Shown one piece after another: positions 18,936 through 63,631 of a stretch of 64,000 bases of DNA (positions within the stretch are counted from its first letter, which is position 1; the number at the start of each line of letters is the position of its first letter). Under the pieces are notes generated by a model. It had not been told where the DNA came from and ran no database searches. It was given only the letters and a program-made list of their open reading frames with translations. This stretch comes from a virus. The DNA is taken from positions 124,001-188,000 of the IMG/VR virus record IMGVR_UViG_3300044641_009805. One strand, 5' to 3'. A program made the position numbers and the translations under genes.

Positions 18936-18941
18936 ACTAAT

Positions 18942-18961
18942 AAGGTAATGTAAATTACCTT
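18942..18961. promoter_or_regulatory. Perfect 8-bp inverted repeat before the nuclease gene
   Basis: AAGGTAAT, loop GTAA, ATTACCTT: an 8-bp perfect stem ending six bases before the ATG at 18968. No T-run follows, so it is not a classical terminator; it could be an operator or an mRNA structure that influences translation. Upstream TTGAAC (18932-18937) with TACCTT 18 bases later is a weak promoter candidate overlapping it. Confidence 0.5.
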
Positions 18962-18967
18962 ATAACA

Positions 18968-19786
18968 ATGCAAGAAAATAATAGTTCCTTCCAAACTTTG
19001 CCTACTGGAAAACCGCATGTTTCTTTTTCTGAGGTAAAGTTATGGAAGGAATGTTCTTTTAGACATCATCTAATTCATATTAAAAAGATTGATTTGTCTA
19101 AACCTTCTCCTGTTTTAGACTTTGGAACCGCTGTCCATGCATCTTGCGAAAAATATCTGTTGACTCGAGAGATGGATCAGCAGGTCGCGTTTAGTCATCT
19201 AGACAATGCTTGGAAGAAGCATGAAGACAATCCTGATTTTTCTAAATCTGCTTTAGAGAAAGCTAAAGTTGAAGTATCTCAAATTCTATCTGAGGTTCCT
19301 GCATTTTTAGATAAAGAGTTTCCTGAATGGCAAGTCGTTGATGCAGAGCATCAACTTTATGAAGCCGTTGAAGGTCATCCTCATGCATTCAAAGGTTTTA
19401 TTGATGGAGTCATTAAAGCCAAGGGTAAAAGAGGAGAAACAGTCTATTGGATTCTCGATTGGAAAACTACTATAAGAGGGTGGTTTCGAGAAAAAAGATC
19501 AGACGACATGGTAAAAGCCCAGCTGGCTCTTTACAAAAACTATTGGTGTCAAAAAAATCCTAATGTTCCATTCAAGGATGTTAGATGCGGTTTTGTGCTT
19601 TTGAAAAAGTCAGCAAAACCAGGAGAACATTGCGAGTTATTTTCTGTTTCTCTTGGTGAGGTCCCAATTAAGAAATCTCTTAAGGTTGTTGGAAACATGT
19701 TGACCTCTGTCAAACGAGGCATTGCCATCAAAAATAGAGATGCATGCACATACTGTGAGTATAAAGGCACTGAGCATTGCACATAA
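18968..19786 (+). CDS. PD-(D/E)XK superfamily nuclease (RecB/Cas4-like) with C-terminal cysteine cluster
   Basis: 272 residues. Core motifs of the RecB-like PD-(D/E)XK nucleases: SEVKLWKECSFRHHL near residue 20-34, His57 in FGTAVHASCE, Asp146 in GFIDG, Asp164 and Lys166 in ILDWKTT, and the QxxxY-type helix KAQLALYK. Three cysteines at 260, 263 and 271 (C-x2-C-x7-C) near the end, with Cys29 available as a fourth, resemble the Fe-S cluster of Cas4/AddB-type enzymes. Likely a DNA exonuclease or recombination nuclease. It is out of place between sugar genes and has its own upstream region. Confidence 0.85.
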   Translation: MQENNSSFQTLPTGKPHVSFSEVKLWKECSFRHHLIHIKKIDLSKPSPVLDFGTAVHASCEKYLLTREMDQQVAFSHLDNAWKKHEDNPDFSKSALEKAKVEVSQILSEVPAFLDKEFPEWQVVDAEHQLYEAVEGHPHAFKGFIDGVIKAKGKRGETVYWILDWKTTIRGWFREKRSDDMVKAQLALYKNYWCQKNPNVPFKDVRCGFVLLKKSAKPGEHCELFSVSLGEVPIKKSLKVVGNMLTSVKRGIAIKNRDACTYCEYKGTEHCT

Positions 19787-19812
19787 TTTTTTGTTAGTTT
19801 GATGAATTTTTA

Positions 19813-19839
19813 TTACAACTTTTGAAAAGTAGGTAATAT
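19813..19839 (+). promoter_or_regulatory. Possible promoter before the GT4 gene
   Basis: TTACAA (19813-19818) and TAATAT (19834-19839), seven bases before ATG 19847. The 15-base spacer is short and the match is imperfect; it is listed because the -10-to-ATG distance equals that of the better promoters in this window. Confidence 0.3.
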
Positions 19840-19846
19840 ATCGTTG

Positions 19847-21091
19847 ATGCAGAAAAAGACAATATTGTTACTTTCAGATCACCCACTTTCTACGAGCGGA
19901 GTAGGAACTCAAGCTAGATGGTTGATTAATGGATTGATTTCTACAGGAAAATATAAGTTTAAGTGCTTCGGCGGTGCAATGAAGCATGAAGACTATAGAA
20001 CGATTGTAGTAAATGAAGATTTCATTATCAAACCGACTAACGGATTTGGTGACAGAAATCTTTTGCGACAAGTCCTTGCGACTGAACGACCAGACGCTCT
20101 AATGCTATTTACCGATCCTAGATTTTTTATTTGGGTTTGGGAAATGGAGGATGAAATACATCAAATATGTCCAATCGCATACAATCATCTATGGGATAAC
20201 GGTCCTTGGCCAGAATTCAATAAAGTGCTATATGAATCTACTGATTTAGTCAATTGTATAAATTGGCCCACCTATCAAATGGTTAAGGAAAGATTTCCAG
20301 AAAAAACCAACTATATTCCTCATGGAGTTCCAAAAGAAATCTATTATCCTCTACCTGAAGATAATTCTAGAAAAAACAAAGTTAAGATCTTAGGTTCCGA
20401 TAGAGCAGATCACTTTGTGGCTCTATATGTCTCTAGAAATGCTAGAAGAAAAATGCCAAGCGATATTTTAGTGTCTTGGAAGCAATTTTTAGATGCTTTG
20501 CAAGAAAAGCATGGTCATAAAAAAGCTACACTTTTGATGCATACAGATCCTCTTGATCATGAAGGTCCTAATCTTTATCATGTTATTGAGATGCTTCAAA
20601 TAGAAAATCATGTGAAATTTTCTAAGAGTAGAGTTGATTTTAATGAAATGAGAGAAGTTTATTCGGCATGTGATACAATCGTTAATAGAAGCTCTAATGA
20701 AGGATTTGGTTTACCCACTTTAGAAGCTATGATGTGTGGAAAGCCCATTATTGCTATTAAAACCGGAGGGTTAACTAGACAAGTTGAAGATCTAGAGACT
20801 GGTGAACAATATGGGATTGCATTAGAACCTGACGTTAAATCTCTGGTTGGTAATCAAATGGTACCTTTCATTTACGAAGATTTAGTTACTCATGAAAAAT
20901 TAGCAAATGCATTTTTAGAAATGTATGAATGGGGTCCTGATAAGAGAAAGCAAGTCGGAATGAGAGCATTAGAACACGCTCACAAAGACTATGATCTAAA
21001 GAAGATTGTTTCTGATTGGGATGTTTCATTGACAAAACTGATTGAAACTTGGAAAGACCAAAGAAAAGCTTGGGAGGTAAATTCTCTATGA
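19847..21091 (+). CDS. GT4 family glycosyltransferase
   Basis: 414 residues from ATG 19847; the TTG just before is not required. Full-length GT-B enzyme: HPLSTSGVGTQARWLINGL is the Gly-rich N-domain loop; YIPHGVPKEIYYP is the domain junction; YVSRNARRKMPSDI provides the phosphate-binding Arg/Lys; RSSNEGFGLPTLEAMMCGKP is the E-x7-E donor motif; IAIKTGGLTRQVED follows as expected. This is the most canonical transferase in the island. It overlaps the next GT4 gene by ATGA. Confidence 0.92.
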   Translation: MQKKTILLLSDHPLSTSGVGTQARWLINGLISTGKYKFKCFGGAMKHEDYRTIVVNEDFIIKPTNGFGDRNLLRQVLATERPDALMLFTDPRFFIWVWEMEDEIHQICPIAYNHLWDNGPWPEFNKVLYESTDLVNCINWPTYQMVKERFPEKTNYIPHGVPKEIYYPLPEDNSRKNKVKILGSDRADHFVALYVSRNARRKMPSDILVSWKQFLDALQEKHGHKKATLLMHTDPLDHEGPNLYHVIEMLQIENHVKFSKSRVDFNEMREVYSACDTIVNRSSNEGFGLPTLEAMMCGKPIIAIKTGGLTRQVEDLETGEQYGIALEPDVKSLVGNQMVPFIYEDLVTHEKLANAFLEMYEWGPDKRKQVGMRALEHAHKDYDLKKIVSDWDVSLTKLIETWKDQRKAWEVNSL

Positions 21092-22248
21092 AAACTGTAG
21101 TTCTCAGGGGTCCTGTGATGACGCAATCTGGATACGGAGTTCATAGTAGACAGGTAGCAAAGTGGTTAATTAATCAACCTGATATTTCCGTGAAATTTAT
21201 GGCAACTCCTTGGGGAGATACTCCATGGATTTTAGATAAAGATTTTGATGATGGATTGGTCGGAAAAATAATGGAAAGAACGGTTGGTCCTGATTACAAG
21301 GCAGACGTTTCTTTTCAACTTCAGCTTCCTAATGAATGGGATCCAAAATTATCTTTAAAAAATATAGGTTTGACAGCATCAGTAGAAACAGACAAGGCTC
21401 ATCCGTCTTGGGTGACTGCTTGCAACAGCATGGATGCAGTTGTTTTTCCTTCTAATCATGCAAAAGAAAGCATTACTTCAATAGGCGAAGTAACTAAACC
21501 AGTTCACGTAATACCAGAATCTTTTTGCGAAGAAATATTAGGTAATGATCACAACTTAGATTTGTCAAAAGTTGACACTGAATTTAATTTTTTAGTGTTC
21601 GGACAACTTACGGGAAATAATCCACACAATGATCGAAAGAATATTCTGTTTACCATCAAATGGTTGTGCGAAGTTTTTAAGGATGATCCTGATGTTGGAA
21701 TAGTTCTAAAGACTAATTCAGGAAGAAATACTAAAATTGATAGAAATCTTATCATTAAGATTCTAAAAAATGTTTTATCTGAAGTTAGAAAAGGTCCATA
21801 TCCTAAATTACATCTTTTGCATGGCGAACTAAGTAATAAAGATGTAGCTGGTCTTTACACGAATCCTAAAATTAAAGCTTTGGTAACTTTGACTAGGGGA
21901 GAAGGATATGGATTACCAATTTTAGAAGCCGCCGCTTCTGGATTACCAGTCATTGCTACAAATTGGTCAGGACACTTAGATTTTTTGAAGCACACCAAAT
22001 TTACTAAGATTGATAGTAAGATCGTCCCAGTCCATCCGTCGCGCATAGATGATAAGATCTTTGTAGCAGGAGCTAAATGGGCTGAACCCCTAGAGTCAGA
22101 TTTTAAGAAAAAAATTGCAAAGTTTAGATCATCTCCTACTTTGCCTAAAGAATGGGCGTTAGAAGGAGCTAATGTGATTAAAGAGAAATATAGGTTTTCA
22201 GAAGTTGCGAAAATTTATGATGATCAATTAGGACATTTCTTAAAATGA
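21088..22248 (+). CDS. GT4 family glycosyltransferase
   Basis: About 386 residues from ATG 21088 in an ATGA overlap, with GGGAGG about 11 bases ahead; an in-frame start at 21049 lies within the preceding gene. N-terminal GPVMTQSGYGVHSRQVAKWL is the acceptor-domain loop; SVETDKAHPSWVTACN and PVHVIPESF are at the junction; LTRGEGYGLPILEAAASGLP is the E-x7-E donor site; ATNWSGHLDFL follows. Likely paralogous to the adjacent enzyme in function. It ends the glycan island and is ATGA-coupled to a small membrane protein. Confidence 0.92.
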   Translation: MKTVVLRGPVMTQSGYGVHSRQVAKWLINQPDISVKFMATPWGDTPWILDKDFDDGLVGKIMERTVGPDYKADVSFQLQLPNEWDPKLSLKNIGLTASVETDKAHPSWVTACNSMDAVVFPSNHAKESITSIGEVTKPVHVIPESFCEEILGNDHNLDLSKVDTEFNFLVFGQLTGNNPHNDRKNILFTIKWLCEVFKDDPDVGIVLKTNSGRNTKIDRNLIIKILKNVLSEVRKGPYPKLHLLHGELSNKDVAGLYTNPKIKALVTLTRGEGYGLPILEAAASGLPVIATNWSGHLDFLKHTKFTKIDSKIVPVHPSRIDDKIFVAGAKWAEPLESDFKKKIAKFRSSPTLPKEWALEGANVIKEKYRFSEVAKIYDDQLGHFLK

Positions 22249-27820: not shown

Positions 27821-27854
27821 CTTTAGATATTTACTCTTGCAAAAGATATTTGGC

Positions 27855-28319
27855 ATGGGTAGCTTTAATTTCAAGAGTTCTGGAAAGCTTGCTTCACAAC
27901 CCACTACGGCTGTTGAGCAGACTTTTTTGCAACCTATTGGTATAAAGACCCCCTTGCAGGTTAGCGATAAGGACATATATGCTATGCATTATAGCTTAGC
28001 TGATCAGATACATGATAATTTGAAGAATTTGCTTTTGACTAACTGGGGTGAGCGTTTAGGTTCGTATTATTTTGGCGCAAATTTAAGAGAATTGACATCA
28101 GAGATATCAAATCTCGATGCATTCGATGAACTAGCTATCACAAGAATAAGAAGCGCTGTTGAAAAATGGATGCCTTTCGTTTCTTTGAAAGATTTTTCTT
28201 CTTCTGCCGATAATGTCAACAATTTTTCTACAGCTATTGTTAAGATTACGATAACTTATACTGTCCCTAAGATTAGCACTGAAATTAGATCATTGCAGAT
28301 AGTCTTGTATGCAATATAA
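27855..28319 (+). CDS. 25: Baseplate wedge protein, gp25-like
   Basis: 154 residues from ATG 27855; an in-frame TTG at 27837 is possible. GPW/gp25 family: the core has DQIHDNLKNLLLTNWGERLG then YYFGANLRELTSEISN, the conserved helix and loop of the family, and a C-terminal pair of beta strands (IVKITITYTVP, IRSLQIVLYAI). T4 gp25 is 132 residues. In the virion it joins wedges to the tail sheath initiation site. It precedes gp6 as in many T4-like phages. No strong Shine-Dalgarno. Confidence 0.9.
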   Translation: MGSFNFKSSGKLASQPTTAVEQTFLQPIGIKTPLQVSDKDIYAMHYSLADQIHDNLKNLLLTNWGERLGSYYFGANLRELTSEISNLDAFDELAITRIRSAVEKWMPFVSLKDFSSSADNVNNFSTAIVKITITYTVPKISTEIRSLQIVLYAI

Positions 28320-44883: not shown

Positions 44884-46080
44884 ATGGCAAAGTATAGAGC
44901 AAGAGTAGATTGTTACTTAGAACCTACGTTGGCAGATAGCGTCGGTGTTAACTCTAGAGCTAATGGCGAGTTCTTCGTGAATCTGGTACAACATATTTCA
45001 TCCAGTATGAATGACCTTGGGATCGAGATGCTTGCCTGGAACTATGGTCAAGGAGGTTCAGATTGGTCTTTTTGGAATGAACCTGGGTCGACAGGTCGAT
45101 ATGCTTTTGCTTGTTTTAGATTTCATTCGGCGTCTTTCGGCAAGTTTGATTGTTTGATCTACGAAAACACGGGTTCTTTCAACGGTCATACAGGCTCTAT
45201 TTATGTAAACAATCAAAACAGTAATTATTTTCAAGAAACATGTTTTTTTCAGGTTGGTATAGCGTTTGCATGTCATCCGAGTGGATCAGTACCTGACGTT
45301 TATCCATATACAGGAGGTCCTTGGGATGGCAGCTATGGACCTGGTGCGGATATTCAGACAGTAACAGAACTTTGGAAAACCACACCAGAAAGCAAAGGTG
45401 CTTTCTTCCCACGCCCAAATGGAATTTCAGGAGAAAGCTCTGGTTCAAGGGCCACCCTACAAGGTCTCGGCGGATATGACATGAATGGATCTAGAAATCA
45501 CTTCATCGTGTCCGAAGACAGTTTGACGATTCTCACGGATTCAGCAATGGATGGCCGTCATAGAATCATGCATTTCGGCCCATACACACCTCGTTCAGGT
45601 ACGACACCTACTCCTGAAAGCCCATACGTCATGTGGTCAAGTAACAATCCAGACAGCTTCTCACCATGGGTTCACTTCTATGGTGGTCAAATAGGCACAA
45701 CCTCTAGAAACGATGACAACATATACCAAGGAGCTCTTGCGCATCCTGATCTGTTGTCGGGATCAAGACGTTTCAGTTGGAATACTGTCGTAACAAGTGA
45801 CATGTTTTTAGGGTTGAATAAGTTTGTAGAGAATGGATCGTACGAAAAATTCCCTGTATGGGTCACTCTCAATGAAGGAACCGACTGCGGGACTTTAGGG
45901 ATCTTAAATCATCTCTGGTATGGAATAGGAATGCCAAATCTAAGCGTCTCTGTAGTCTCTTCATCAGCTGCATTCGGTAGAATGACGATGAATGAAAACA
46001 AGGTCATTGTTCCTTGGAGCGGAGATCCTCCAACCACCACGCCGTGGACGAGAAAAGGTAGAAACTTTAGCATAGGATGA
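44884..46080 (+). CDS. Fibre-region protein, first of a tandem paralogue pair
   Basis: 398 residues, about 60 percent or more identical by eye to the next gene over its whole length; both begin with KYRARVDCYL and end in GRNFSIG. Beta-rich with many Gly/Ser/aromatic residues, no signal peptide. Conserved blocks in both are NDLGIEMLAWNYG, FRFHSASFGKFDCLIYENTG and VGIAFACHPSGS. Probably a fibre-associated or receptor-binding virion protein; no family recognised. The ribosome-binding site is weak. Confidence 0.7.
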   Translation: MAKYRARVDCYLEPTLADSVGVNSRANGEFFVNLVQHISSSMNDLGIEMLAWNYGQGGSDWSFWNEPGSTGRYAFACFRFHSASFGKFDCLIYENTGSFNGHTGSIYVNNQNSNYFQETCFFQVGIAFACHPSGSVPDVYPYTGGPWDGSYGPGADIQTVTELWKTTPESKGAFFPRPNGISGESSGSRATLQGLGGYDMNGSRNHFIVSEDSLTILTDSAMDGRHRIMHFGPYTPRSGTTPTPESPYVMWSSNNPDSFSPWVHFYGGQIGTTSRNDDNIYQGALAHPDLLSGSRRFSWNTVVTSDMFLGLNKFVENGSYEKFPVWVTLNEGTDCGTLGILNHLWYGIGMPNLSVSVVSSSAAFGRMTMNENKVIVPWSGDPPTTTPWTRKGRNFSIG

Positions 46081-46095
46081 CAAGAGGAATCTAAC

Positions 46096-47286
46096 ATGAC
46101 AAAGTATAGAGCAAGAGTAGATTGTTATTTACAACCCGCAGTGGGAGATTCAGCTGGTGTCAATTCCAGAGCAAACGGTGAATTCTTTGTTAATTTGATT
46201 CAACACATGTCTTCTAGCATGAACGACCTTGGAATCGAGATGCTAGCCTGGAATTACGGCGATGGCGGATCAGATTGGTCTTTTTGGGATGAACCTGGAG
46301 CGACAGGCAGAAATGCTTTTGCATGTTTTAGATTTCATTCTGCGTCTTTTGGAAAATTCGATTGCTTGATCTATGAGAACACTGGGTCCAATACTTCCGT
46401 ACGTACGCACACAGGATCTATCTTCATAGACAATCAAGACAGGCAATTCTTCGAGCAAGAAGGTTACTATCAAGTAGGTATTGCCTTTGCATGTCATCCA
46501 AGCGGATCTGTTCCTAACACATATCCTTATGTCGATGGCCCATGGAATGGTGGTTACGGAATGAGCGCTTCTATAGAGACCGTAGGTCCTGTTTGGAAAA
46601 CAACTCCAGCCGGCAAAGGAGCATTCTTCCCGAGACCGAACGGTGTACTAGGTCAGCTGTCTAGCTCAAGATCTTCTCTATCTGGAATTGCGGGTAGCAG
46701 TATGGATCAAAGCAAAAATCACTTCATTTTGTCTGAGGACAGCGTCACGATTCTTGTTGATGATGCTTCTGACGGTTATTCTAGAGTGATGCACTTTGGT
46801 CCTTACATTCCGAGGTCTGGATCTAACCCTGAAAGTCCGTATGTCATGTGGAACACGGGAGATGATAATGTTGCTCCTTGGATTCACGGATACGCCAACA
46901 CAATTGGAAGCTTCACCCTCGTTAGCAATGCACCACAAGGAGCCATTGCACACCCAGACTTGTCCAAAGGAGCTTTAAAGTTAAGCTGGGGGTTTTTAGC
47001 TCATGATTCTTCTAACGGATATAACAATTTCATCAACAGCGGATCATTTGAAAAATTCCCTGTGTGGGCTATTGTTAACGAAGGTACAGAAAGAGGAATC
47101 CTTGGTACTCTTAAACATCTAACACTTGGCGTTGGGATGAATAGTCTCACTGTCTCTACACTTTCTTCTTCAGCCGCGTTTGGACGTCCGACCACAGCAG
47201 AATCAAAAGTGCTGGTTCCGTGGGATGGAGTTCCTCCTCAATCATCTTCGCCTAATAGAACTGGTAGAAACTTTAGCATAGGTTGA
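46096..47286 (+). CDS. Fibre-region protein, second of a tandem paralogue pair
   Basis: 396 residues, paralogue of the preceding gene with conserved core and divergent loops (the region between residues 100-125 and the middle SSSRSSLSG). The first ~36 coding bases are nearly identical in both copies, and the leaders differ, with AGAGGAA here. Tandem copies with divergent loops are consistent with diversification of adhesin proteins or two subunits of one complex. Confidence 0.7.
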   Translation: MTKYRARVDCYLQPAVGDSAGVNSRANGEFFVNLIQHMSSSMNDLGIEMLAWNYGDGGSDWSFWDEPGATGRNAFACFRFHSASFGKFDCLIYENTGSNTSVRTHTGSIFIDNQDRQFFEQEGYYQVGIAFACHPSGSVPNTYPYVDGPWNGGYGMSASIETVGPVWKTTPAGKGAFFPRPNGVLGQLSSSRSSLSGIAGSSMDQSKNHFILSEDSVTILVDDASDGYSRVMHFGPYIPRSGSNPESPYVMWNTGDDNVAPWIHGYANTIGSFTLVSNAPQGAIAHPDLSKGALKLSWGFLAHDSSNGYNNFINSGSFEKFPVWAIVNEGTERGILGTLKHLTLGVGMNSLTVSTLSSSAAFGRPTTAESKVLVPWDGVPPQSSSPNRTGRNFSIG

Positions 47287-51570: not shown

Positions 51571-52236
51571 ATGGCTCGTCTTTTTATCACACAAAGAGAA
51601 ATTAATTTCATTTCTGACATCACAAAAGAAGTGATAAAAGATGTGATCGGCCAAAAGATCTATTACTATCCTATCTCAGAAACTAAGACCAAGACTCATG
51701 AAGTTTATGCTGAAGCTATGCAAAAAATATTCGATAATCCAATCGTTATTGATGTTTTAGTAAGCAATGAATTTCAGATCGATACAAAGATAGATAAGTT
51801 TGGAGTAGACACTAATTTTAAATCAGAGGTTTACATCCAACATAGAGACATGATAGAAAAAGGTATTAATCCTGCAATCGGCGATTATTATTCTTTTAGC
51901 GATGTTTTTTATGAAATAACTGAATACAGATTCATGAGAAACATTTACGGACAGGCTGAAAACATTGACGGAGTCGCGTTGGTGGGACTCAGGGTACGTG
52001 ATAGTCAATTCAAGGCTCTTGTTAAAGGCCCGACTGGCATTGAGTACACCGATAAAGATGCTACGCAAACCACATTCGTACAGCAAAGAGGTGTTGAAGA
52101 AAATGCCGAAGGTCCGACAGCCGACGTTAGAGATTTGGTGAAGCAAGGGGTTCTTGACCCACCAATCTCAGGTCCCAGAGAAGTTTCCAGCAAAGGAGAT
52201 TCTACTGGTGCTGGTAATTCTTTTTATGATGAATGA
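51571..52236 (+). CDS. 14: Neck protein, gp14-like
   Basis: 221 residues, GGAGA before ATG. QKIYYYPISETKTKTHEVYAEA, IEKGINPAIGDYYSFSDVFY and EITEYRFMRNIYGQAE fit a beta-rich virion connector; T4 gp14 is 256 residues. The C-terminus is low-complexity, acidic and Gly/Ser-rich. Overlaps the tail terminator gene by three bases. The name follows the module order and is moderately sure. Confidence 0.5.
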   Translation: MARLFITQREINFISDITKEVIKDVIGQKIYYYPISETKTKTHEVYAEAMQKIFDNPIVIDVLVSNEFQIDTKIDKFGVDTNFKSEVYIQHRDMIEKGINPAIGDYYSFSDVFYEITEYRFMRNIYGQAENIDGVALVGLRVRDSQFKALVKGPTGIEYTDKDATQTTFVQQRGVEENAEGPTADVRDLVKQGVLDPPISGPREVSSKGDSTGAGNSFYDE

Positions 52237-53573
52237 GCAGAACTATGCCTACCAGATTTAATTCTAACAGCAATCCTCAGTTTGGCGTGCCAGGGTTAAT
52301 TGATAAAACGCACCAAGGAACGGCTGAATTTACAATCCCTCCCGTCGGATTGGAAGACGTTGATGTTTCGATTTTTAATTTGTTTGATAAAGAGTTAACC
52401 TTGCAAGTCAATGGTGATAATTCAGTACCAAAAAATGTTCCTGTTATCTTTGCGTCGGGAGAAAAATGGGCAATCTTGAAGAAGAGAAAAGCCTTAAGAG
52501 ATAGAAATAATTCTTTGATACTTCCTTTGATCACTATCGTAAGGACGGGAATTTCCCAAAATTCAGACGAAGACATCGCCGGTAGAGGTATAAATCAACA
52601 AACCGGTGAAATCATCATAAAAAGACGCCTTGATAAATCCGATAGAAAATATCAAAATCTTATTAATCGATTTTTATTAAAAAACCAACTGAATGTAGCG
52701 ACTAATCCCAACAAAGAATACGTCGATGGTCAGATCTTGACTGACAGAACTGTCGGAGAAGATGAAGAATCATCAGCCATAATAGATGGAGCTTGGCTTG
52801 CAGATATCAAGAAAAAAAATATCTATGAGACCATAGTCATTCCTGCTCCTCAATTTTATAACATTCGTTATGAGATTACTCTGTGGACTCAATACACGCA
52901 ACATATGAATCAGATTTTAGAAAATATTGTTGCTTCTTTTTTACCGCAAGGTAATTCTTGGAAGCTTAACACGACCAAAGGATACTGGTTCATCGCTAAA
53001 GTTGAGGATAATTCATACGAACCCGAAAATAACGTCGATGACATGTCACAAGAGGAGAGAATCATCAAATATAAATTTAATGTAAAAGTTCTCGCTTACT
53101 TGTTTGCCACGCAGTCTCCTGGAACTGGGGTTCCAATAAAACGTTATGTTTCATCTCCGATTATAAAATTTGAAACCGTTGCGCCAAAAGACGATGATCC
53201 CGCGTCGCCTATCAATTTAGTTGAAGATCCTTTCCTCGGATCCGATGATCCGACTCTTCCGTTGTCTGACACCAAAAATAATAGAGAAGATCAACGCAGA
53301 AGCGGTACTAAACTATATTCTCCAACGGACTCTGCTGTCTCAAATGATCCTGCACTACAAACCAGGTCATCCAAACAAAATAGACCAGTGTACCAAAAAA
53401 TAATTACTCAAAACTCTTCAGGTAAAAATGTTGCGACTTACGCTAGGGTTTTTAGAACATCCAATGCGTCAGGAGAAACTGTCATAAAACCGTCAAATGA
53501 TTTTTCTTCAAAATCTAATCCTGCGGCTGCTGACACGCTACTAGGTGATCTAACATACGAAACTACTAAGTGA
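52233..53573 (+). CDS. 15: Tail terminator / sheath stabiliser, gp15-like
   Basis: 446 residues, ATGA overlap with the previous gene (a second ATG at 52245 is possible). Matches T4 gp15 features: PVIFASGEKWAILKK (gp15 PITYASKEHF..), LPLITIVRTGI, APQFYNIRYEITLWTQYTQH, MNQILENIVASFLPQ and IKYKFNVKVLAYLF. T4 gp15 is 272 residues; the extra length is a Ser/Asn/Asp-rich C-terminal tail of about 150 residues. It caps the tail tube and binds the sheath. Confidence 0.75.
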   Translation: MSRTMPTRFNSNSNPQFGVPGLIDKTHQGTAEFTIPPVGLEDVDVSIFNLFDKELTLQVNGDNSVPKNVPVIFASGEKWAILKKRKALRDRNNSLILPLITIVRTGISQNSDEDIAGRGINQQTGEIIIKRRLDKSDRKYQNLINRFLLKNQLNVATNPNKEYVDGQILTDRTVGEDEESSAIIDGAWLADIKKKNIYETIVIPAPQFYNIRYEITLWTQYTQHMNQILENIVASFLPQGNSWKLNTTKGYWFIAKVEDNSYEPENNVDDMSQEERIIKYKFNVKVLAYLFATQSPGTGVPIKRYVSSPIIKFETVAPKDDDPASPINLVEDPFLGSDDPTLPLSDTKNNREDQRRSGTKLYSPTDSAVSNDPALQTRSSKQNRPVYQKIITQNSSGKNVATYARVFRTSNASGETVIKPSNDFSSKSNPAAADTLLGDLTYETTK

Positions 53574-53648: not shown

Positions 53649-56600
53649 ATGGCTGAACAAGTTTTTAGATCACCTAATTTTTTTGAAAGAGAAATTGAGC
53701 TTAAGGCACCGCCTCCGTCAGGACCCGTCGGAGTTCCTGCAGGCGTGATTGGTACTTCTAAAAAAGGACCGGCTTTCGTACCAGTTGCTGTTTCTAACTT
53801 TAACGAATTCGTAAGCATTTTTGGCGATCTAGATCCAAAAAAGTTTGGTCCCTATGCCGTCAATGAGTTTTTGAAAAATAGAACAGCGTTAACGTATATG
53901 CGCGTCCTAGGCGGAGGCTCTAATCGTTCTTTAAGCGACGTGCAAACGACGCTTATAACTGGTAAGGTAAAGAATGCCGGATTTAAGACGATCGGGACTA
54001 AAACTGATTTAACCGAGGATCAATACAAACGACATGTCGGGGGTGTGCAGTTCATCGTAGCTGATCACACGATCGATACGGCGGATGAACCAGCAGGAAT
54101 GCCTATGTTCACTGACAATGATTCTAGGACTCAAACCAGCAACGTTTCGCTTGTTAGAGGCGTCGTTCTTATGGCATCTGGCGCTAGAATGCTTGTTTTA
54201 GACGGAGATCAAAGCATAGGAACCAGCTTCGATGGTGTGGTTTCTGTTGATGATGAAGGAGCTGTAAAGAGCGGAAAAGTCAAGTTAGTCATTTCATCCA
54301 CTTTAGGATCAGCTTTCTCTTATGATGATGGGAAAGCAGGATTGAAGGTTTATACAGCATCTCTTAACCCTACTAGCGCAGATTACTTTGGTAAAGTGTT
54401 AAATAAGGATCCTGAAAAATTTGCGCAGTATCAGCACTTGCTATACACGGACTTTGCTGTAGATGATGAAGTTGCCTCGGTTCTTGATAATGATAAGGTA
54501 GCAATATTATCAGGATCAAGCTTTAATAGTCCAGCATCTGGAGATCCATCACTTCATTTCAGCGGAGCATTTGGTTCATTCGATACTAGATTCACGGCAC
54601 CCAAAACTCCGTACTTTATTTCTCAGCCTTTCGGAACGTCAGAATATGATTTGTTTGCCGTTGAATCTATCGACGATGGAGAATACGCAAACAGTCTTTA
54701 CAAGGTGTCGATCAGCAATCTTAAGGTTTCTGAGAATGACGCATATGATTATGGAACATTCAATCTACAAATTCGCGATTTTAATGATACGGACGTAAAT
54801 CCAGTTATCATAGAAGAGTTTGTAAATTGTTCACTCGATCCCGACGCCGACAACTATGTGGCAAAGTTAGTAGGAGATCGCAAAGTGACTTATGACTTTG
54901 ATCAAGACATATTGGTAGAAAGACGCATCGTTACGACAGGAAAGTACCAAAATATTTCAAAGTTTGTCAGAGTAGTCATGTCTCCCGCTGTGGAAGAGAA
55001 AAAAATCCCTGCAAAATCTTTGCCTTTCGGTTTCAGAGGGTTTGAGCTTCTGAAGACAAACGATAATTTGAAAGATTCTGTTCCAACAAGAAATAGACTA
55101 TGGGGATCAGTAGGTACCGGAGGCTCAAGTTTAGCAAGTTCTATTCTTCCTCCTGTACCTTACAGATATAAGGTAACCCGCGGCGCAGTTTCATCCGCTG
55201 CAAACTGGAGTGGCGAACCTGGACCTCTTGAGTCTACAAATCCAGCTTATTACTGGGGCGTGAAGTTTGAAAGGAATACAGAACCCTTAAACAACAACCT
55301 GAGTGAAGAAAAGAACGTTCTCATTGAAAGCTTCACAAAGTTCATGGGAATCAAAAAGCTAGATGTTCTAGTCACGGGTTCTGGTGCTGACACTTTCAAT
55401 AACAACAAATTCAGCCTTTCCAAGGTCGCTTTTGCAAATGGATCTATAGCTGAGTTAACTGGCACAGTTAGAACTCACATGAGAGAAGCAGCATATATCA
55501 GAAATGCCAAGGTTGATCCATCAACTTACACGATCTACGATTCAGGATTCGGAGATAGAATCACTTTAGCGAGCTTACTATCAAATGGAGAATCCTATCA
55601 GTTCAACAGATTCTCAACGTTTGCAAAGTTCTCAACATTCATGTGCGGAGGATTCGACGGATTGAATATCCTAGACCCAGCTGCCCGTCGAATGAATGAT
55701 AAAGCAACTTCATTTGAAACTCCTAAGGGAGCAGCCTCAACCACATATACATCACCAGGTCTTGCTTCTAACGTGGCTGGAACTGGAGTTGACAATAACT
55801 CAGTTAGTTCTTATGTCACAGCAATTGACGTAATGACTGATCCTCTGCAGGTCAATGTGAATCTGCTTGCCCTCCCAGGTATTCGTGAGGATTATCTCAC
55901 GAATTACACATCAAAGAAAGTAAGAGATTATGGATTGGCCATGTACATCATGGACATACCAAATTATGACGACAACAGTGATAGAATCTATGATGATTCT
56001 ACGAACAGAATCAACATCGAAAATACAGCAGCTATCTTCGAAGAAAGAACGTTCGATAACAACTACGTCGCGACCTACTTCCCCAACGTCTATGTCAATG
56101 ATACGACGAACAGCAGATACGTGAAAGTTCCTGCGTCTGTTGCAGCTCTCGGTGCATTAGGGTTCAACGACTTTATTGCATATCCTTGGTTTGCACCTGC
56201 AGGATTCAACCGCGCCGCGCTTGACTTCGTTAACAACGTAGAGGTCAGATTGAACGTCTCGGATAGAGATCGTCTATACGACGCTAGAATCAATCCTATA
56301 GCGACATTCCCAAGATTGGGATTCGTTATCTACGGACAGAAGACGTTACAAATAAGAAAGTCTGCTCTTGATAGAGTTAATGTGAGACGTTTGCTCTTAG
56401 AGGTTAAGAGATTAATCATCAACATAGCTAACAGGATCATATTTGAACAGAACACACCAGCCGTCAGAAACAAGTTTGTGGCGGATGCAATTCTTCAACT
56501 CAGCCTTATTCAGACCCAGGCAGGCATTGAGGCCTACCAGGTCATCATGAATGAGACGAACAACACACAAGAGGACATCGATCTCAATCGTTTGAATGGT

Positions 56601-56684
56601 CGAATCGTCGTCGTCCCAACGAGAGCAATTGAATTTATTGCGATCGATTTCATCGTAACAAACGCCGGCGTCGAATTTGTCTGA
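53649..56684 (+). CDS. 18: Tail sheath protein, copy 1 (most divergent)
   Basis: 1011 residues, with AGGAG upstream. N-terminal SPNFFEREIELKAPPP and VPAGVIGTSKKGPAFVP are typical of sheath proteins, and the C-terminal end shows GQKTLQIRKSALDRVNVRRLL (the final helix motif) and IEFIAIDFIVTNAG. T4 gp18 is 659 residues, so about 350 extra residues are inserted as outward-facing domains. This copy is the most distant of three tandem paralogues and differs in the middle domains. Confidence 0.9.
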   Translation: MAEQVFRSPNFFEREIELKAPPPSGPVGVPAGVIGTSKKGPAFVPVAVSNFNEFVSIFGDLDPKKFGPYAVNEFLKNRTALTYMRVLGGGSNRSLSDVQTTLITGKVKNAGFKTIGTKTDLTEDQYKRHVGGVQFIVADHTIDTADEPAGMPMFTDNDSRTQTSNVSLVRGVVLMASGARMLVLDGDQSIGTSFDGVVSVDDEGAVKSGKVKLVISSTLGSAFSYDDGKAGLKVYTASLNPTSADYFGKVLNKDPEKFAQYQHLLYTDFAVDDEVASVLDNDKVAILSGSSFNSPASGDPSLHFSGAFGSFDTRFTAPKTPYFISQPFGTSEYDLFAVESIDDGEYANSLYKVSISNLKVSENDAYDYGTFNLQIRDFNDTDVNPVIIEEFVNCSLDPDADNYVAKLVGDRKVTYDFDQDILVERRIVTTGKYQNISKFVRVVMSPAVEEKKIPAKSLPFGFRGFELLKTNDNLKDSVPTRNRLWGSVGTGGSSLASSILPPVPYRYKVTRGAVSSAANWSGEPGPLESTNPAYYWGVKFERNTEPLNNNLSEEKNVLIESFTKFMGIKKLDVLVTGSGADTFNNNKFSLSKVAFANGSIAELTGTVRTHMREAAYIRNAKVDPSTYTIYDSGFGDRITLASLLSNGESYQFNRFSTFAKFSTFMCGGFDGLNILDPAARRMNDKATSFETPKGAASTTYTSPGLASNVAGTGVDNNSVSSYVTAIDVMTDPLQVNVNLLALPGIREDYLTNYTSKKVRDYGLAMYIMDIPNYDDNSDRIYDDSTNRINIENTAAIFEERTFDNNYVATYFPNVYVNDTTNSRYVKVPASVAALGALGFNDFIAYPWFAPAGFNRAALDFVNNVEVRLNVSDRDRLYDARINPIATFPRLGFVIYGQKTLQIRKSALDRVNVRRLLLEVKRLIINIANRIIFEQNTPAVRNKFVADAILQLSLIQTQAGIEAYQVIMNETNNTQEDIDLNRLNGRIVVVPTRAIEFIAIDFIVTNAGVEFV

Positions 56685-56736
56685 TGCAAACGTCGGGAAT
56701 CTTATACTTATCATGCAAAGCGTAGGAGCGATATAA

Positions 56737-59700
56737 ATGGCACAGCTCAAATTTGGAAGCGCAGGAGTAACAACAAGAGAAATAGACTTAACGGGCCCCG
56801 TCGAAACAGGACCGACGGGGGTCCCCGCGGGGGTCATCGGCACGTCATTAAAGGGACCAGCATTCGTACCACTAACTTATGGAACGCTCAAGGACTTCTT
56901 CGCGAAGTTCGGTGAGAGCGATTCTAAGAAGTTTGGACCGATAGCTGTCTCTGAATGGCTGAGCCGTTCAACCGCAGTGACTTACCTTAGAGTCTTAGGC
57001 GTTGGTGATGGAAAGCAACGTCTTAAAACTGGAACAACCGCTGGTGAAGTTAACAATGCAGGATTCGTCGTAGGCGAAGAACAACCTGCAGAAGACGGAA
57101 CTTTATCACCGAATCCATATGCTGTTTCAGGAGGACCACTGGGTAGAACATACTTCTTAGGATGTTTTATGTCAGAGTCCGTAGGGTCAACTTTCTTAAG
57201 TGACGCTGGTCTTCAAGGAACAAGAAGGGTTAACTCTCCTTCTGTCTTATCAGCTTCAGTTCCAATCGTCAGAGGCGTGTTGATGGCTCCTTCAGGAGTC
57301 GTCTTGCGCTTGTCGGCAAGCTATGCTACGTCCGCCGTTCCTGGTTCTGCAACACCTGCAACACCCGCAAACCTGTTTGGAGCTTCGGTGGGAACGATCG
57401 TTCTTTCTGCTTCCAACGCACCTTCCAAACAAGAGTTCACGATGTTGCTTTACGGGCACAAAGGAACAGACGTTGCGTATCCAAACGTTCTAACTGCATC
57501 TTTTGACGTTAACTCAGCGAACCACATATCCAAGGTTCTTAACACAGATCCTTATAAGATGCAGCAAGCAGGTCACTATCTTGCAGCAAGCTGGGATATA
57601 CATCCTTCGTTGGCAGTCATTACTGGAACAGGATTCTTACCAGTAGACGCAGGATATAACTGTGTATCTAGCTTAACACACTCACTTGGATCAGAGAATT
57701 CGGTCTTCTTGTTAACTTCGTCTTTGGCAAGAAACTCAGGATCACAGACTGTACCCAATTACGAGTCCTTCCGCGATAGATTCTCCAATGCCAAGACCCC
57801 TTGGGTTATCTCTCAAAAGTTCGGCGGAAAACCAGTTAACTTGTTCAGATTCCACGCTCTAGACTCTGGAGCCAACATCTCTAACAAGGTCAAGATTGGA
57901 ATCGCCAACATCACTCCTTCAAATGCGGCTAATTACAAATACGGTTCATTCAACGTCGTTCTTCGTCGCATGGATGATACGGATATCGAACCTAAGGTTT
58001 TGGAGAGCTTTAATGGAGTCAACCTCGATCCATCTTCTGATCGTTACATCGGAAAAGTAATGGGCGACATAAATGCCTACTACGATTTTGATCGTGATGA
58101 CTCAAGCCAAAAATTGGTCATTGAAGGAAATTACACATTAAGATCCAGACACGTTAGAGTTGAGGTTTCTGATGAAGTGATAGATCTATCAGTCGATCCA
58201 ACTGCATTGCCAATGGGTTTCAGAGGTATTGCTCACCTCATGACATCAGGATCAGCTATCTTTAATGTGGATAATGCGGCATTAATAGACGGCGGATTGA
58301 TCCATAACGTGGTTGAACCACCTCTTCCATTCAGAAAGAACATTTTTGATGGCGTCGGTGCTCAAGCTCAAGAAAATTCTAGGTACTACTGGGGTGCAAA
58401 GTTCGAACACGTCGTAGATGTGAACGACCAAAACAGCAACGTAACACCAGACAAATCATTCAACAGCTTCACAAGCTACTTCCCGAATTTCTCGACTGCA
58501 TTCATGAACTTCGTGGTGGGTGACAACGCTGGTGCTGCGACGACTGACGAAAATGGAATCGTAGATTCTGACAAATTCTGTAACAACTTGTTCTCTCTAG
58601 AGCATGTTCAGATCAGAACAGGTTCTAACGGTACCGTTGAGCAAGCTGACGATTGGAAACATGCGACATACGTCAGAAATGGTGATATACAACCAGACGA
58701 TGGTGCCAAGACAAGAGCAGTGAAGGTCGACGATCTATCATTCTCGCTGAACAGAAGATTCCTTAAGTTCTCTTTGATCATGCAGGGTGGATTTGATGGC
58801 GTCAATATCTTTGATGAGGATGAACATCAGATCAATAATGCTGCTGTCACAGCAGACATGAACGACGCTGATAGAGGTCGCGAAAAGGGTCCCAACGTAT
58901 CCGCTTATCTCAAGGCCCTCGAGGTCATGAAGAACACGACCAATGTTGATATTCAGCTTCTCGCGATACCCGGCATCAGAACGCCTGTCGTTACAGATGC
59001 TGCAATCACGGCGACTGAAGAGCGTTTCGATGCTCTGTACATTATGGACATGGAACAGGTAGACAAGGACGGAAACCTGATCGATATCACGGGAGTCGTC
59101 AAACCTTCAGTCACGGAAACAATCCTGCAGCATAAGGCACGTAACCTCAACACGTCCTTCGCGGCAGCTTACTTCCCAGACGTTCTAATGAGAGATCCTT
59201 CAAAGCAATCGAACACAGTGGTCGTTCCACCTTCGGTCGTGGTCCTCGGAGCTCTAGCCTTGAATGACTCACTAGGATATCCTTGGTTTGCTCCAGCAGG
59301 TCAAACCCGCGGCGCTCTCCCCACGACTCTTGAGACAAGCATACAGCTCAAGGATCAGGACCTAGATTCGCTTTACGATGAGGACATCAACCCCTTGTAC
59401 GCTCAAATTATAAACGCACAAGGCGGATTGAACCCACGCGGCGGAGTGGTTGTTTGGGGTCAAAAGACGATGCTACAAGCTGCTTCTGCTCTTGATAGAA
59501 TCAACGTCCGCCGTCTCCTCATCGACGTTCGTCGTCAGGTTCGCGAGATTGCTCAAACGATCATCTTCGAGCCCAACCGCGAAGCAACCCTCGCAAGGTT
59601 CTCTGCAGCTGTCACACCACGTCTCCAGAGAATCCAAGCCCTCGCCGGTCTCGATCGTTTCAGAGTCATCATCGATTCTTCTACGACCACACAGGCCGAC

Positions 59701-59808
59701 GTCGAGAACAACACGGTCAGAGGTAAGATATTCCTGCAGCCAACAAAGACAATCGAGTTCGTCTCACTCGACTTCGTCGTTGCAAATAACCTGCAGTCAG
59801 TGACCTGA
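56737..59808 (+). CDS. 18: Tail sheath protein, copy 2
   Basis: 1023 residues, GGAGCGATATA leader. The N-terminus FGSAGVTTREIDLTGPV and the loop VPAGVIGTSLKGPAFVP, the mid-region GPLGRTYFLGCFMSES, and the C-terminal GQKTMLQAASALDRINVRRLL show close kinship with copy 3 over the full length. Codon use becomes markedly GC-richer toward the 3' end (Arg by CGT/CGC, many C-ending codons), as expected for highly expressed or newly acquired sequence. A strong terminator follows. Confidence 0.92.
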   Translation: MAQLKFGSAGVTTREIDLTGPVETGPTGVPAGVIGTSLKGPAFVPLTYGTLKDFFAKFGESDSKKFGPIAVSEWLSRSTAVTYLRVLGVGDGKQRLKTGTTAGEVNNAGFVVGEEQPAEDGTLSPNPYAVSGGPLGRTYFLGCFMSESVGSTFLSDAGLQGTRRVNSPSVLSASVPIVRGVLMAPSGVVLRLSASYATSAVPGSATPATPANLFGASVGTIVLSASNAPSKQEFTMLLYGHKGTDVAYPNVLTASFDVNSANHISKVLNTDPYKMQQAGHYLAASWDIHPSLAVITGTGFLPVDAGYNCVSSLTHSLGSENSVFLLTSSLARNSGSQTVPNYESFRDRFSNAKTPWVISQKFGGKPVNLFRFHALDSGANISNKVKIGIANITPSNAANYKYGSFNVVLRRMDDTDIEPKVLESFNGVNLDPSSDRYIGKVMGDINAYYDFDRDDSSQKLVIEGNYTLRSRHVRVEVSDEVIDLSVDPTALPMGFRGIAHLMTSGSAIFNVDNAALIDGGLIHNVVEPPLPFRKNIFDGVGAQAQENSRYYWGAKFEHVVDVNDQNSNVTPDKSFNSFTSYFPNFSTAFMNFVVGDNAGAATTDENGIVDSDKFCNNLFSLEHVQIRTGSNGTVEQADDWKHATYVRNGDIQPDDGAKTRAVKVDDLSFSLNRRFLKFSLIMQGGFDGVNIFDEDEHQINNAAVTADMNDADRGREKGPNVSAYLKALEVMKNTTNVDIQLLAIPGIRTPVVTDAAITATEERFDALYIMDMEQVDKDGNLIDITGVVKPSVTETILQHKARNLNTSFAAAYFPDVLMRDPSKQSNTVVVPPSVVVLGALALNDSLGYPWFAPAGQTRGALPTTLETSIQLKDQDLDSLYDEDINPLYAQIINAQGGLNPRGGVVVWGQKTMLQAASALDRINVRRLLIDVRRQVREIAQTIIFEPNREATLARFSAAVTPRLQRIQALAGLDRFRVIIDSSTTTQADVENNTVRGKIFLQPTKTIEFVSLDFVVANNLQSVT

Positions 59809-59831
59809 TAACCTCTGTCAAAACAGACAGG

Positions 59832-59864
59832 AACCGCCTCTTTTAACGGGGCGGTTTCTTTTTT
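59832..59864 (+). terminator. Rho-independent terminator after sheath copy 2
   Basis: AACCGCC (59832-59838) and GGCGGTT (59850-59856) pair perfectly over seven bases around an 11-base loop and are followed by a T-rich run (TCTTTTTTG). It should end or attenuate transcription between sheath copies 2 and 3. Confidence 0.88.
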
Positions 59865-59881
59865 GTCGAGGGCATTAATTA

Positions 59882-59974
59882 ATGTCAACAATTGCACGTG
59901 GTAAAACAATCAAGGACATATTGCAAAATATTCCCATGACATCTGATGATGATTCTTACATGTCAGATGTCTGA
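59882..59974 (+). CDS. Very short open frame between sheath genes
   Basis: 30 codons from ATG 59882 to TGA 59974, reading MSTIARGKTIKDILQNI with an acidic end. No ribosome-binding site. The last codons lie in a perfect inverted repeat. It may be a short peptide gene or chance; I favour chance or a decayed remnant. Confidence 0.2.
   Translation: MSTIARGKTIKDILQNIPMTSDDDSYMSDV
59938..59971. promoter_or_regulatory. Perfect 9-bp inverted repeat before sheath copy 3
   Basis: GACATCTGA (59938-59946) and TCAGATGTC (59963-59971) pair over nine bases with a 16-base loop, 40 bases before the sheath 3 start. No T-run follows, so this is a candidate protein-binding site, RNA stability element or attachment-type site. 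Confidence 0.5.
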
Positions 59975-60010
59975 AGCAGGATTATAGTTATGGAACGTAG
60001 AGCGATATAG

Positions 60011-63000
60011 ATGGCTAAATTCGAATTTTCAAGCGCAGGAATATCAGCACAAGAGATCGGGACGATTGGTCCTGTCAAGACCCAACCGAGTGGTCTTTCG
60101 GCTGGCGTCATTGGAACTTCAAATAACGGTCCCGCTTTCGTTCCCTTTACGTTAGGATCTCTCACTGATTTTATCGACAAGTTTGGGACCATCGACGGCA
60201 AAAAGTTTGGTCCCCTTGCGGTCGCAGAGTGGATGAGAAATGCAAACTCTATCACCTACATTCGCATCCTCGGAGCAGGCGACGGAAATAAACGCCTGAC
60301 GTCTGGCGAGGTCACCAACGCAGGTTTCACTGTCGGAGAAGAACAACCTATCAACTCTAGTTCCTTAGGGTCCAATCCATATGCAAATCTCAATGGTCCT
60401 CTAGGCAGGACTTACTTTTTGGGATGCTTCATGTCAGAATCTGCAGGATCAGTCGTGTTCAGTTCGGCTGGGCTGCAAGGAACAGGCAGCATCAATGGGA
60501 TAACGGCAGGAGCCGTTCCCATCATCAGAGGAGTTCTGATGGCACCTTCGGGGGTGATCTTACGTTTATCTTCATCAGGAGGAGGATACGATTCATCGGC
60601 TCCCTTATCAAACTTTGTAGCCGATGAATCAACGGCTCACGGTACGACTTTAGGCTCCATCTCGCTTAGAAAAGATCAAACGCCATCACAGGAATTCGTT
60701 CTGCTGATGAATGGTCACAAAGGCACGACCTCAGCTCCTAATTTCATCACGGCTTCCTTCGATATGTTCTCCACCAACTACATATCGAACGTATTCAATC
60801 TCACGGCTTCATTGATACAAGAAAAAGGTCACTACCTTGCAGCTCATTGGGACATCTACCCCTCTCACGCTGTCGTGACTGGTACGGGAGTCGTATCTGC
60901 TGGCGCCGACGTGGCTTCAGATTCAAATAGAATACTAGACACTGAGAGATCAGTCTTTTTGATCACGTCTTCGTTGTCTAGAAACGTTGGATCGACGACG
61001 GTCCCAAATTATGAATCTTTCAGAGATCGATTCACTCACGCATCCACGCCTTGGATAATTTCTCAAAAACTTTTAGGAAAGCACGAAAATCTTTTCAAGC
61101 TCCATGCCCTTGACGCGGGGGCGAACGTATCCAACAGCTACAAGGTGACAATTCATGACGTACGTCCTAAGTCAGAAGGAAGTCCATACAAGTACGGTTC
61201 GTTCAGCCTGTCTGTGAGGTTGATAGATGATCCAGATAACGAAGACTCTAAACCGCTTGAAACCTTCAACGACCTGACGCTGGATCCATCTTCTGCCACT
61301 TACATCTGTAAAGTGATAGGAGACGTAAACGTCTACTACGATTTTGACAGACCTCCTGACGACCAAAGGATGGTGATCGAAGGCAATTATCCCTTAAAGT
61401 CTAGATACGTTAGAGTTGAAGTATCTGAAGAGGTTCATAACGCTACTCTGAATCCTGCGGCCATCCCGATGGGGTCCCGAGGAATTTCACACATAGTTAC
61501 TTCCGGCTCGGCTCCGCTAGCTCCATTGGGCGGCTCGGATATTCTACCTCTGGTCGATCAATACTACCTGCGAAATTCCGTGGTTCCTCCTCTACCAATG
61601 AGGCTAAACAACAAGGCAGCAGGTAACAACACGGACCCCCCGACGAAGAAGCCTTGGGGACCTATATTCGTTCACTCAAGTCCATTCGACTCGAACGATT
61701 TGCCAAACTCAAATCTCAATAAATCTTTCAACGCTTTTGCGCTTCACTATCCTGACCACTCGACGACAACTCTAAACTTTTCCGTGAGAGACAACGAGGG
61801 AACGCCCGACTCTACCACGAATGGGATATTGGACGCCGATAGGTTCTGTAACAACCTATTCACTTTAGAAAATGTCAAGGTGTTGACCGGTAGCAGCGGA
61901 ATCATCGAGTGGGGCTCTGCCGAGTATGTTCGTCACGGCTTCGTCGCGGTCGATGATGATGCAAAGACACGAGGGATCAACGTCTCTGATCTTCTATTGA
62001 AGAAAAACAGAGACTATCTAAGCTTTAATGTGATGTTCCAAGGAGGATTCGACGGGATCAACATCTTCGACTCTGATGAAGCTGCCATCAATGACGTCGC
62101 CGTCAGAGGAGACATGGAGGACATTGCACGAGGCGGATTGAACGGTTCAGCCGTGGTCTCTCACAGAAAAGCGATAGACATCATCAAGAACACAGTCAAT
62201 GCGGACATCGGCGTCATGGCCATCCCTGGAATAAGAGAACGCGTGATCACTGACGTCGCCGTGCAGGCGGCGGAAGAAAGAATGGACACTCTCTATATCA
62301 TGGACATAGAACAGTACGATTCAGGCTCAAATCCCATGTCCATGTCGGCTCTAGGCAAGTCCAACGCACCCTCAACGTCATTGACCATTGCGGCTCTTAA
62401 AGAACGCGGCGTGAACTCATCCTATGCAGCCGCATACTACCCCGACGTGATAATAACCCCTGATCAATTGCCTGATCAGGAGATAATCGTCCCACCCTCC
62501 GTGGCCGTCCTCGGCGCCATCTCACTCAATGACTCTGTCGGAGCTCCATGGTTCGCTCCCGCCGGCATGACCCGAGGCCGTCTCACAACGGCCCTACAAC
62601 CCGTGATCAACTTCGACGAACCCACGATCGATAACCTGTACATCAACAACATAAATCCACTCTACGCGACGACAAACATAAAACAACTATCCCCAGCCCA
62701 AACGTCAGGCGTCGTCATCTGGGGTCAAAAGACGCTGCTGCTATCGACAGAATCTTCTCTAGGCAGAATAGCCGTCCGCAGGCTTCTCATCGACGTACGC
62801 AAGGCCGTCAGACAAATCGCGCTACAATTCCTCTTTGAACCAAACGTAGAGAGAGTGTCAACCGTCTTCGCCTCACAGATCACAGAATACCTGTCGTCCG
62901 TCCGCGCCCGCAACGGCCTCCAATCCTTCAAGGTGAACATAGAATCACCCCTAAAATCTAGACAAAACGTCGAAAACAACTTGCTCAAGGGCAAAATCTA

Positions 63001-63076
63001 CCTCCAACCCCCAAAGACCCTTGAATTCGTCTCACTGGATTTCATCATCTCGAACGGTCTACAGTCCGAGATTTGA
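60011..63076 (+). CDS. 18: Tail sheath protein, copy 3
   Basis: 1021 residues. Shares FSSAGISAQEIGTIGPV, AGVIGTSNNGPAFVPF, GPLGRTYFLGCFMSES, RVEVSEEV and GQKTLLLSTESSLGRI with copy 2. Its leader (GTAGAGCGATATAG) parallels that of copy 2 (GTAGGAGCGATATAA), so the duplication included upstream sequence; the weakened Shine-Dalgarno may lower its expression. The 3' half is GC-rich, with CGC/CGT Arg codons. The tail tube gene follows. Confidence 0.92.
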   Translation: MAKFEFSSAGISAQEIGTIGPVKTQPSGLSAGVIGTSNNGPAFVPFTLGSLTDFIDKFGTIDGKKFGPLAVAEWMRNANSITYIRILGAGDGNKRLTSGEVTNAGFTVGEEQPINSSSLGSNPYANLNGPLGRTYFLGCFMSESAGSVVFSSAGLQGTGSINGITAGAVPIIRGVLMAPSGVILRLSSSGGGYDSSAPLSNFVADESTAHGTTLGSISLRKDQTPSQEFVLLMNGHKGTTSAPNFITASFDMFSTNYISNVFNLTASLIQEKGHYLAAHWDIYPSHAVVTGTGVVSAGADVASDSNRILDTERSVFLITSSLSRNVGSTTVPNYESFRDRFTHASTPWIISQKLLGKHENLFKLHALDAGANVSNSYKVTIHDVRPKSEGSPYKYGSFSLSVRLIDDPDNEDSKPLETFNDLTLDPSSATYICKVIGDVNVYYDFDRPPDDQRMVIEGNYPLKSRYVRVEVSEEVHNATLNPAAIPMGSRGISHIVTSGSAPLAPLGGSDILPLVDQYYLRNSVVPPLPMRLNNKAAGNNTDPPTKKPWGPIFVHSSPFDSNDLPNSNLNKSFNAFALHYPDHSTTTLNFSVRDNEGTPDSTTNGILDADRFCNNLFTLENVKVLTGSSGIIEWGSAEYVRHGFVAVDDDAKTRGINVSDLLLKKNRDYLSFNVMFQGGFDGINIFDSDEAAINDVAVRGDMEDIARGGLNGSAVVSHRKAIDIIKNTVNADIGVMAIPGIRERVITDVAVQAAEERMDTLYIMDIEQYDSGSNPMSMSALGKSNAPSTSLTIAALKERGVNSSYAAAYYPDVIITPDQLPDQEIIVPPSVAVLGAISLNDSVGAPWFAPAGMTRGRLTTALQPVINFDEPTIDNLYINNINPLYATTNIKQLSPAQTSGVVIWGQKTLLLSTESSLGRIAVRRLLIDVRKAVRQIALQFLFEPNVERVSTVFASQITEYLSSVRARNGLQSFKVNIESPLKSRQNVENNLLKGKIYLQPPKTLEFVSLDFIISNGLQSEI

Positions 63077-63142: not shown

Positions 63143-63631
63143 ATGGCCGAAACTCTTGACGTCACGTCAATGATTCCAAACAAGTTTGAACCAAAGCGTA
63201 AGAACCGCTGGGTCCTCATGATTGAAGGCATCGACGCCTACATCATCAAGACAGCGGCTCGTCCACAAATCACGACAGAAGAAGTCCCAGTCCCGTTCAT
63301 CAACTCAACCCGCTACCTCGCAGGCAAAACGACGTTCAGCACCATGGGCGTCACCCTCCACGACCCAATCGCTCCATCAGGCGCGCAACAGGTCATGGAA
63401 TGGATCCGCCTCCACTTCGAATCGGTCAGCGGCCGCGCGGGCTACGCCGACTTCTACAAGCGTGACATCCAACTCAAGATGCTCGACCCCGTCGGCACCG
63501 TCATCGAACTCTGGGACATCAAAGGCGCATTCATCACGGATGCTAACTTCAACGAGGTCACCTACGAGGACGGAAACCCAACGGAAATATCACTAACTCT
63601 CCGTTTCGACAATTGCGTGCTGCAGTTCTAG
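63143..63631 (+). CDS. 19: Tail tube protein (gp19)
   Basis: 162 residues, T4 gp19 is 163. KRKNRWVLMIEGIDAYIIK, NSTRYLAGKTTFSTMGVTLH and the C-terminal DANFNEVTYEDGNP with a final beta strand TLRFDNCVLQF are the family pattern. AGGAG lies before the ATG. Strongly GC-biased codon use (CGC/CGT for Arg, CTC for Leu) in contrast with the AT-rich genes on the left. It forms the inner tube enclosed by the sheath. Confidence 0.93.
   Translation: MAETLDVTSMIPNKFEPKRKNRWVLMIEGIDAYIIKTAARPQITTEEVPVPFINSTRYLAGKTTFSTMGVTLHDPIAPSGAQQVMEWIRLHFESVSGRAGYADFYKRDIQLKMLDPVGTVIELWDIKGAFITDANFNEVTYEDGNPTEISLTLRFDNCVLQF

Follow-up and report, generated by a model that had tools for sequence, protein, structure and literature searches.

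A third tandem tail sheath gene, added to an old two-type pair in an uncultured phage lineage

The DNA analysed here, a 64,000-nucleotide stretch (the window) of the IMG/VR virus record of an uncultured jumbo phage, carries three consecutive tail sheath genes. The first two belong to types A and B, and the third (B2), judging from trees and substitution rates, is a later, lineage-specific duplicate of B that is intact and under strong purifying selection. We propose, with about even confidence, that the sheath is built from three subunit types, with A and the original B copy (B1) forming the trunk and B2 serving as a minor, specialised subunit at a restricted position, for example one or a few end rings.

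The three open reading frames lie on the plus strand, start with ATG and contain no internal stops. They encode copy 1 (type A, 53649..56684, 1011 aa), copy 2 (type B, B1, 56737..59808, 1023 aa) and copy 3 (the type B duplicate B2, 60011..63076, 1021 aa). All three match the tail sheath family PHROG_23 within a range of E = 1e-39 to 1e-53 (1.8e-52, 9.9e-53 and 3.2e-39 in gene order), and also give weaker matches to Pfam Phage_sheath_1/1C. They sit in the neighbourhood expected of the sheath family, flanked upstream by a T4 gp15-like gene for the tail sheath stabiliser/terminator (52233..53573, plus strand, 446 aa; Pfam PF16724, E = 3e-13; phrog_227) and downstream by a gp19-like tail tube gene (63143..63631, plus strand; phrog_4542, E = 3e-30). 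A search of the whole 278,435-bp record returned exactly three sheath genes and this one tube gene, with no second tube gene. A sequence-only reading of the window had described three consecutive intact sheath paralogues of these lengths, copies 2 and 3 close and copy 1 divergent, sharing an N-terminal AGVIGTS and a C-terminal GQKT..RRLL motif, and the present analysis bears this out: both motifs are invariant in the alignment, and pairwise identity is 53% between copies 2 and 3, 36% between copies 1 and 2 and ~32% between copies 1 and 3. Assembly duplication as the source of the triplet is ruled out, since identity among the copies is no more than 32-53% and the order A-B1-B2 recurs in the independent IMG/VR contigs L085, L086, L088 and L107.

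Structure prediction, which the same reading had suggested, gave AlphaFold2 (AF2) models with a sheath fold for copy 1 (pLDDT 88.4, pTM 0.89) and copy 3 (pLDDT 83.7, pTM 0.86). Foldseek searches with both models returned T4 gp18 as the best solved structure, with T4 and KP1 sheaths as the top matches. The PDB profile match to gp18 covers the N-terminus (profile positions 5-96) and the core and C-terminal part (712-999), and the surplus length relative to T4 sits mid-protein between them, in a region that presumably points outward. Elsewhere in the window, a gp25-like protein is encoded at 27837-28319, a pair of neighbouring paralogues (398 and 396 aa; 44884-46080 and 46096-47286) without a PHROG match lies in the structural region, and ~20 kb (2542-22248) is occupied by mostly same-strand genes of 240-640 aa, of which the three sampled (at 2542, 19844 and 21049) are glycosyltransferase-like.

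A scan of IMG/VR with the three window sheaths as queries recovered a large uncultured clade, with sheaths mostly of about 950-1200 aa and some larger. In the tree, genes in first position (A) split from genes in second position (B), and these two types and the single-sheath phages also stayed apart when outside groups were added under a mixture model, with strong support for A and for B. Among distinct loci with complete context up to the tube gene, 49 carry two sheaths, nearly all of them A plus B, a count that takes in an independent pair (L046/L158) and a locus with an extra C-type gene past the tube (L044). Another 24 carry one sheath, almost all on other branches, and in two one sheath gene is broken by a frameshift; three sheaths occur in the window strain group only. 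Large records agree: seven relatives have exactly two sheaths, and the records of the window and of L086 exactly three. The tandem A and B types are descendants of an old duplication. The baseline of one sheath gene in a T4-like phage, from which the sequence-only reading had started, is correct for T4 and unsuitable as a yardstick here, where relatives normally have two; with two types the norm in the clade, only the third copy is exceptional. The idea that the sheath is made from two or three subunit types is supported as an interpretation, A and B occurring together in dozens of complete loci.

Other records show further variation among sheath genes. The tandem pair at L046:5693-11525 (also L158) arose independently, both copies clustering together next to clade A. 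In a 484-kb uncultured huge phage (L245; LR756508.1, 202-209 kb), two sheath genes in tandem encode ~830 aa each, and one of them sits on a very long branch; this is probably another independent multi-sheath case. Some type B sheaths reach 1400-1800 aa through very large insertions (L022:3491-8884, L047:2532-7436, L056:13202-17629, L059:13292-17728, L191:7998-12521 and L192:5272-9474), whereas most A copies are near 1050 aa. One subclade carries a C-type sheath paralogue past the tube gene (L047:8038-11373, L064:3150-6374, L070:3157-5889 and L044:10100-11620). In L047, L064 and L070 its strong sheath-profile match is confined to the outer domains (~24-774), with none over the contractile core or C-terminal domain, so the C-type may be a protein of the sheath surface that lacks the motor part. 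No C-type homologue was found elsewhere in the window phage, where only the three sheaths match. Free-standing genes resembling homing endonucleases (GIY-YIG-like and HNH/Vsr-like by eye) lie between sheaths or between sheath and tube in L045, L049, L055, L056, L061 and L075, which suggests that these gaps are an insertion hotspot.

Copies 2 and 3 are sisters within clade B (SH-aLRT 95 and 98), and B2 was found nowhere but in the window phage and strains close to it, which are independent assemblies 97-100% identical. Comparison of the window with L086 gave dN/dS values of 0.062, 0.056 and 0.047 for copies 1, 2 and 3, and comparison with L107 gave 0.034, 0.045 and 0.049, the last from a partial copy 3. 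These low values confirm the earlier impression that no copy is decayed, and rule out copy 3 as a pseudogene. The stem branch leading to B2 measures 0.92 against 0.32 for B1, almost threefold, while A, B1, the gp15-like protein and the tube evolve at ordinary rates in the window lineage, which indicates that only B2 adapted; no compensating acceleration was detected among the tube, gp15 and neck proteins tested in that lineage. The long branch shows a past burst of change, and copy 3 is constrained at present, as its dN/dS indicates, despite the long stem. Synonymous divergence between the window and L086 falls from 0.85 in copy 1 to 0.56 in copy 2 and 0.18 in copy 3, which points to mosaic exchange inside this gene cluster.

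The changes in copy 3 are concentrated in its C-terminal domain (residues 905-1021; 62723..63073, plus strand). Of the positions at which the other B proteins reach 90% conservation or more, 19 of 50 are changed in this domain and 15 of 193 in the rest of the protein (Fisher p = 8e-7); at the same positions copy 2 is changed at 1 of 50 and 1 of 193. The boundary at residue 905 was set after the windowed profile had been seen, and agrees with Pfam Phage_sheath_1C, which covers 914-1009. Within the domain, 6 of 11 conserved sites are changed in residues 941-970, where AF2 places a helix (947-966; 62849..62908, plus strand), and 8 of 14 in residues 971-1000, where residues 978-993 (62942..62989, plus strand) form the loop and first strand of the handshake platform. 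In other contractile machines, the attachment helix of the sheath binds the tube (PMC8894135, PMC9700779), and the arms of the ring above, or the tail terminator, rest on the sheath C-terminal domain as their platform (PMC10457771). From its position and the first two of these precedents, we infer that helix 947-966 is a candidate tube-attachment helix.

Fourteen alignment columns discriminate A from B, five of them inside the C-terminal domain. Copy 3 carries a third residue at four of these five (950, 981, 982 and 993) and at none of the nine outside (p = 0.005), where it always has the A or the B residue. It is conceivable, if doubtful, that these four residues act as a subunit-identity code that places each type in a three-zone sheath, B2 having gained a third code after the duplication; if so, the evolution of a new sheath position would be traceable step by step. 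Change focused on the C-terminal domain is not unique to copy 3, and is similarly concentrated in the B sheath of L055 and the A sheaths of L023, L061 and L025, so specialisation may have arisen in this domain more than once. Acquisition of the copy 3 domain by recombination from a distant sheath is unsupported, its top non-self matches being B1 (52%) and other type B sheaths. The sequence-only reading had named inactivating changes at subunit contacts as evidence against its proposal. Many copy 3 changes do lie on the surface presumed to make contacts, in the tube-facing/platform domain, but they have become fixed and purifying selection on the gene is strong, so that they look like specialisation, not inactivation.

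The gap between copies 2 and 3 contains an intrinsic terminator with a 12-bp stem and a T-rich tail (59829..59865, plus strand), the top hit of the terminator scan. Its stem is kept in L107 and identical in L085, L086 and L088. The scan found no terminator in the copy 1/copy 2 gap or the copy 3/tube gap, and the same script, applied to 19 two-type relatives, found none between B and the tube gene. The Shine-Dalgarno sequence in the copy 3 leader, TAGAG, is weaker than the TAGGAG of copy 2. The layout of A-B1, terminator and B2-tube suggests separate dosing, and from the terminator and the weaker Shine-Dalgarno we infer that B2 may be expressed at a lower level. No convincing late-promoter motif shared upstream of the structural genes was found. 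The copy 3 leader also holds a 30-codon ORF (59882-59974) and a second hairpin (GACATCTGA...TCAGATGTC; 59938..59971, plus strand), recognised from sequence and fold, and both are conserved in the divergent strain L107.

In the proposed three-type sheath, A and B1 would form the two-component trunk that is usual in the clade. B2 arose when B was duplicated later, in the window lineage, and lies past the terminator of B1 and in one unit with the tube gene. It retained the sheath fold and both terminal arms, while its C-terminal domain, which would contact the tube and carry the neighbouring ring (or the neck/terminator) as a platform, was remodelled; B2 would then be confined to part of the sheath, for example to one ring, or a few, at one end. 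Because the C-terminal contact domain is remodelled with fold and arms kept, a restricted position appears the most likely one for B2. Its placement at an end would follow by analogy, and the two available guides differ as to which end: the domain geometry points to the head-proximal end, and the precedent of extracellular contractile injection systems (eCIS) to the baseplate.

The strongest competing explanation, which we consider rather unlikely, is that all three types co-polymerise along the entire trunk, alternating from ring to ring or mixed inside single rings, B2 having no special position. The full sheath profile and both arms in all three copies, the sheath fold of the two modelled ones and the regular companionship of A and B across the clade would fit such a sheath, as would CP220, with at least two sheath types in its virions (PMC2853527). 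A general trunk role sits poorly, however, with the absence of B2 from every sampled two-type relative, with the unaccelerated A, B1 and tube of the window lineage, and with the clustering of B2 changes in the contact domain behind a terminator. A role for copy 3 as an assembly aid, regulator or decoy, or a course towards dispensability, in place of a bulk or end-ring subunit, would account for the long branch and the many changes at conserved sites; it is improbable given the dN/dS of ~0.05, the intact copies in the strains and the complete fold in the AF2 model. Alternative tails, a possibility raised by the sequence-only reading in which each virion would use one sheath type and the copies would be tail variants in the population, were deemed possible for CP220 (PMC2853527) but are very improbable here, with a single tube gene, A and B conserved together in complete relatives across the clade, A and B1 as direct neighbours whose gap yielded no terminator, and nothing switch-like seen between the copies on inspection of the sequence.

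It is usual to regard sheaths as homopolymers. A broad clade in which two sheath types are regular, together with a lineage that adds a third, offers a natural series for studying how subunits are assigned to positions in a helical machine. It also allows one to ask what a multi-type sheath gains, for example in the baseplate trigger or the neck anchor. For annotation, and for phylogenies in which the sheath serves as a single-copy marker, 'one sheath gene' is a poor assumption.

Among known systems, T4 gp18 has the same fold and is the best match in sequence and structure, but T4 has a single sheath type of 659 aa. With PaBG and CP220 the window phage shares the possession of more than one intact sheath gene per genome, here three, all under purifying selection. 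PaBG, a Pseudomonas jumbo phage, has two sheath paralogues, both identified in virions (PMC7412058, citing Kurochkina 2018). The PaBG genes encode ~545-550 aa and are unlinked, and a third copy is not reported there; the PaBG sheaths form a clade of their own, so the pair represents an independent duplication. The Campylobacter phage CP220 likewise has several sheath-annotated genes, with at least two Gp18 types in virions and three bands labelled Gp18 (PMC2853527), but its loci are scattered, one beside an insertion element, it has two tube types as well, and CPT_0052 is annotated with Ig-like domains in place of sheath domains. According to a survey, there are genomes that encode two sheath copies (PMC9230969). 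A three-type sheath is established in eCIS (PMC10598620), where Afp2/Afp3/Afp4 and Pvc2/Pvc3/Pvc4 provide three sheath paralogues per contractile machine and, as in B2, the third paralogue diverges at the C-terminal domain. The Afp4 profile match ends at 942, structures of the baseplate region are the source of the listed Afp4 and Pvc4 chains, and Pvc4 is described as a sheath initiator required for particle formation (PMC12210884). The eCIS differ in having no head, in sheaths of 350-466 aa and in separate duplications; in the tree, B2 lies inside phage clade B and the eCIS triplet of L236 apart from it, so that common descent is not indicated. At most, B2 would work like Afp4/Pvc4 by analogy. 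Beyond the multiple Gp18 genes of CP220, the open literature, as far as our incomplete coverage extends, yielded no description of a tandem three-type phage sheath that goes back to an old A/B pair. Multi-type sheaths are thus already known from PaBG, CP220 and Afp/PVC, and what is new here is a tandem third type added to an old A/B pair.
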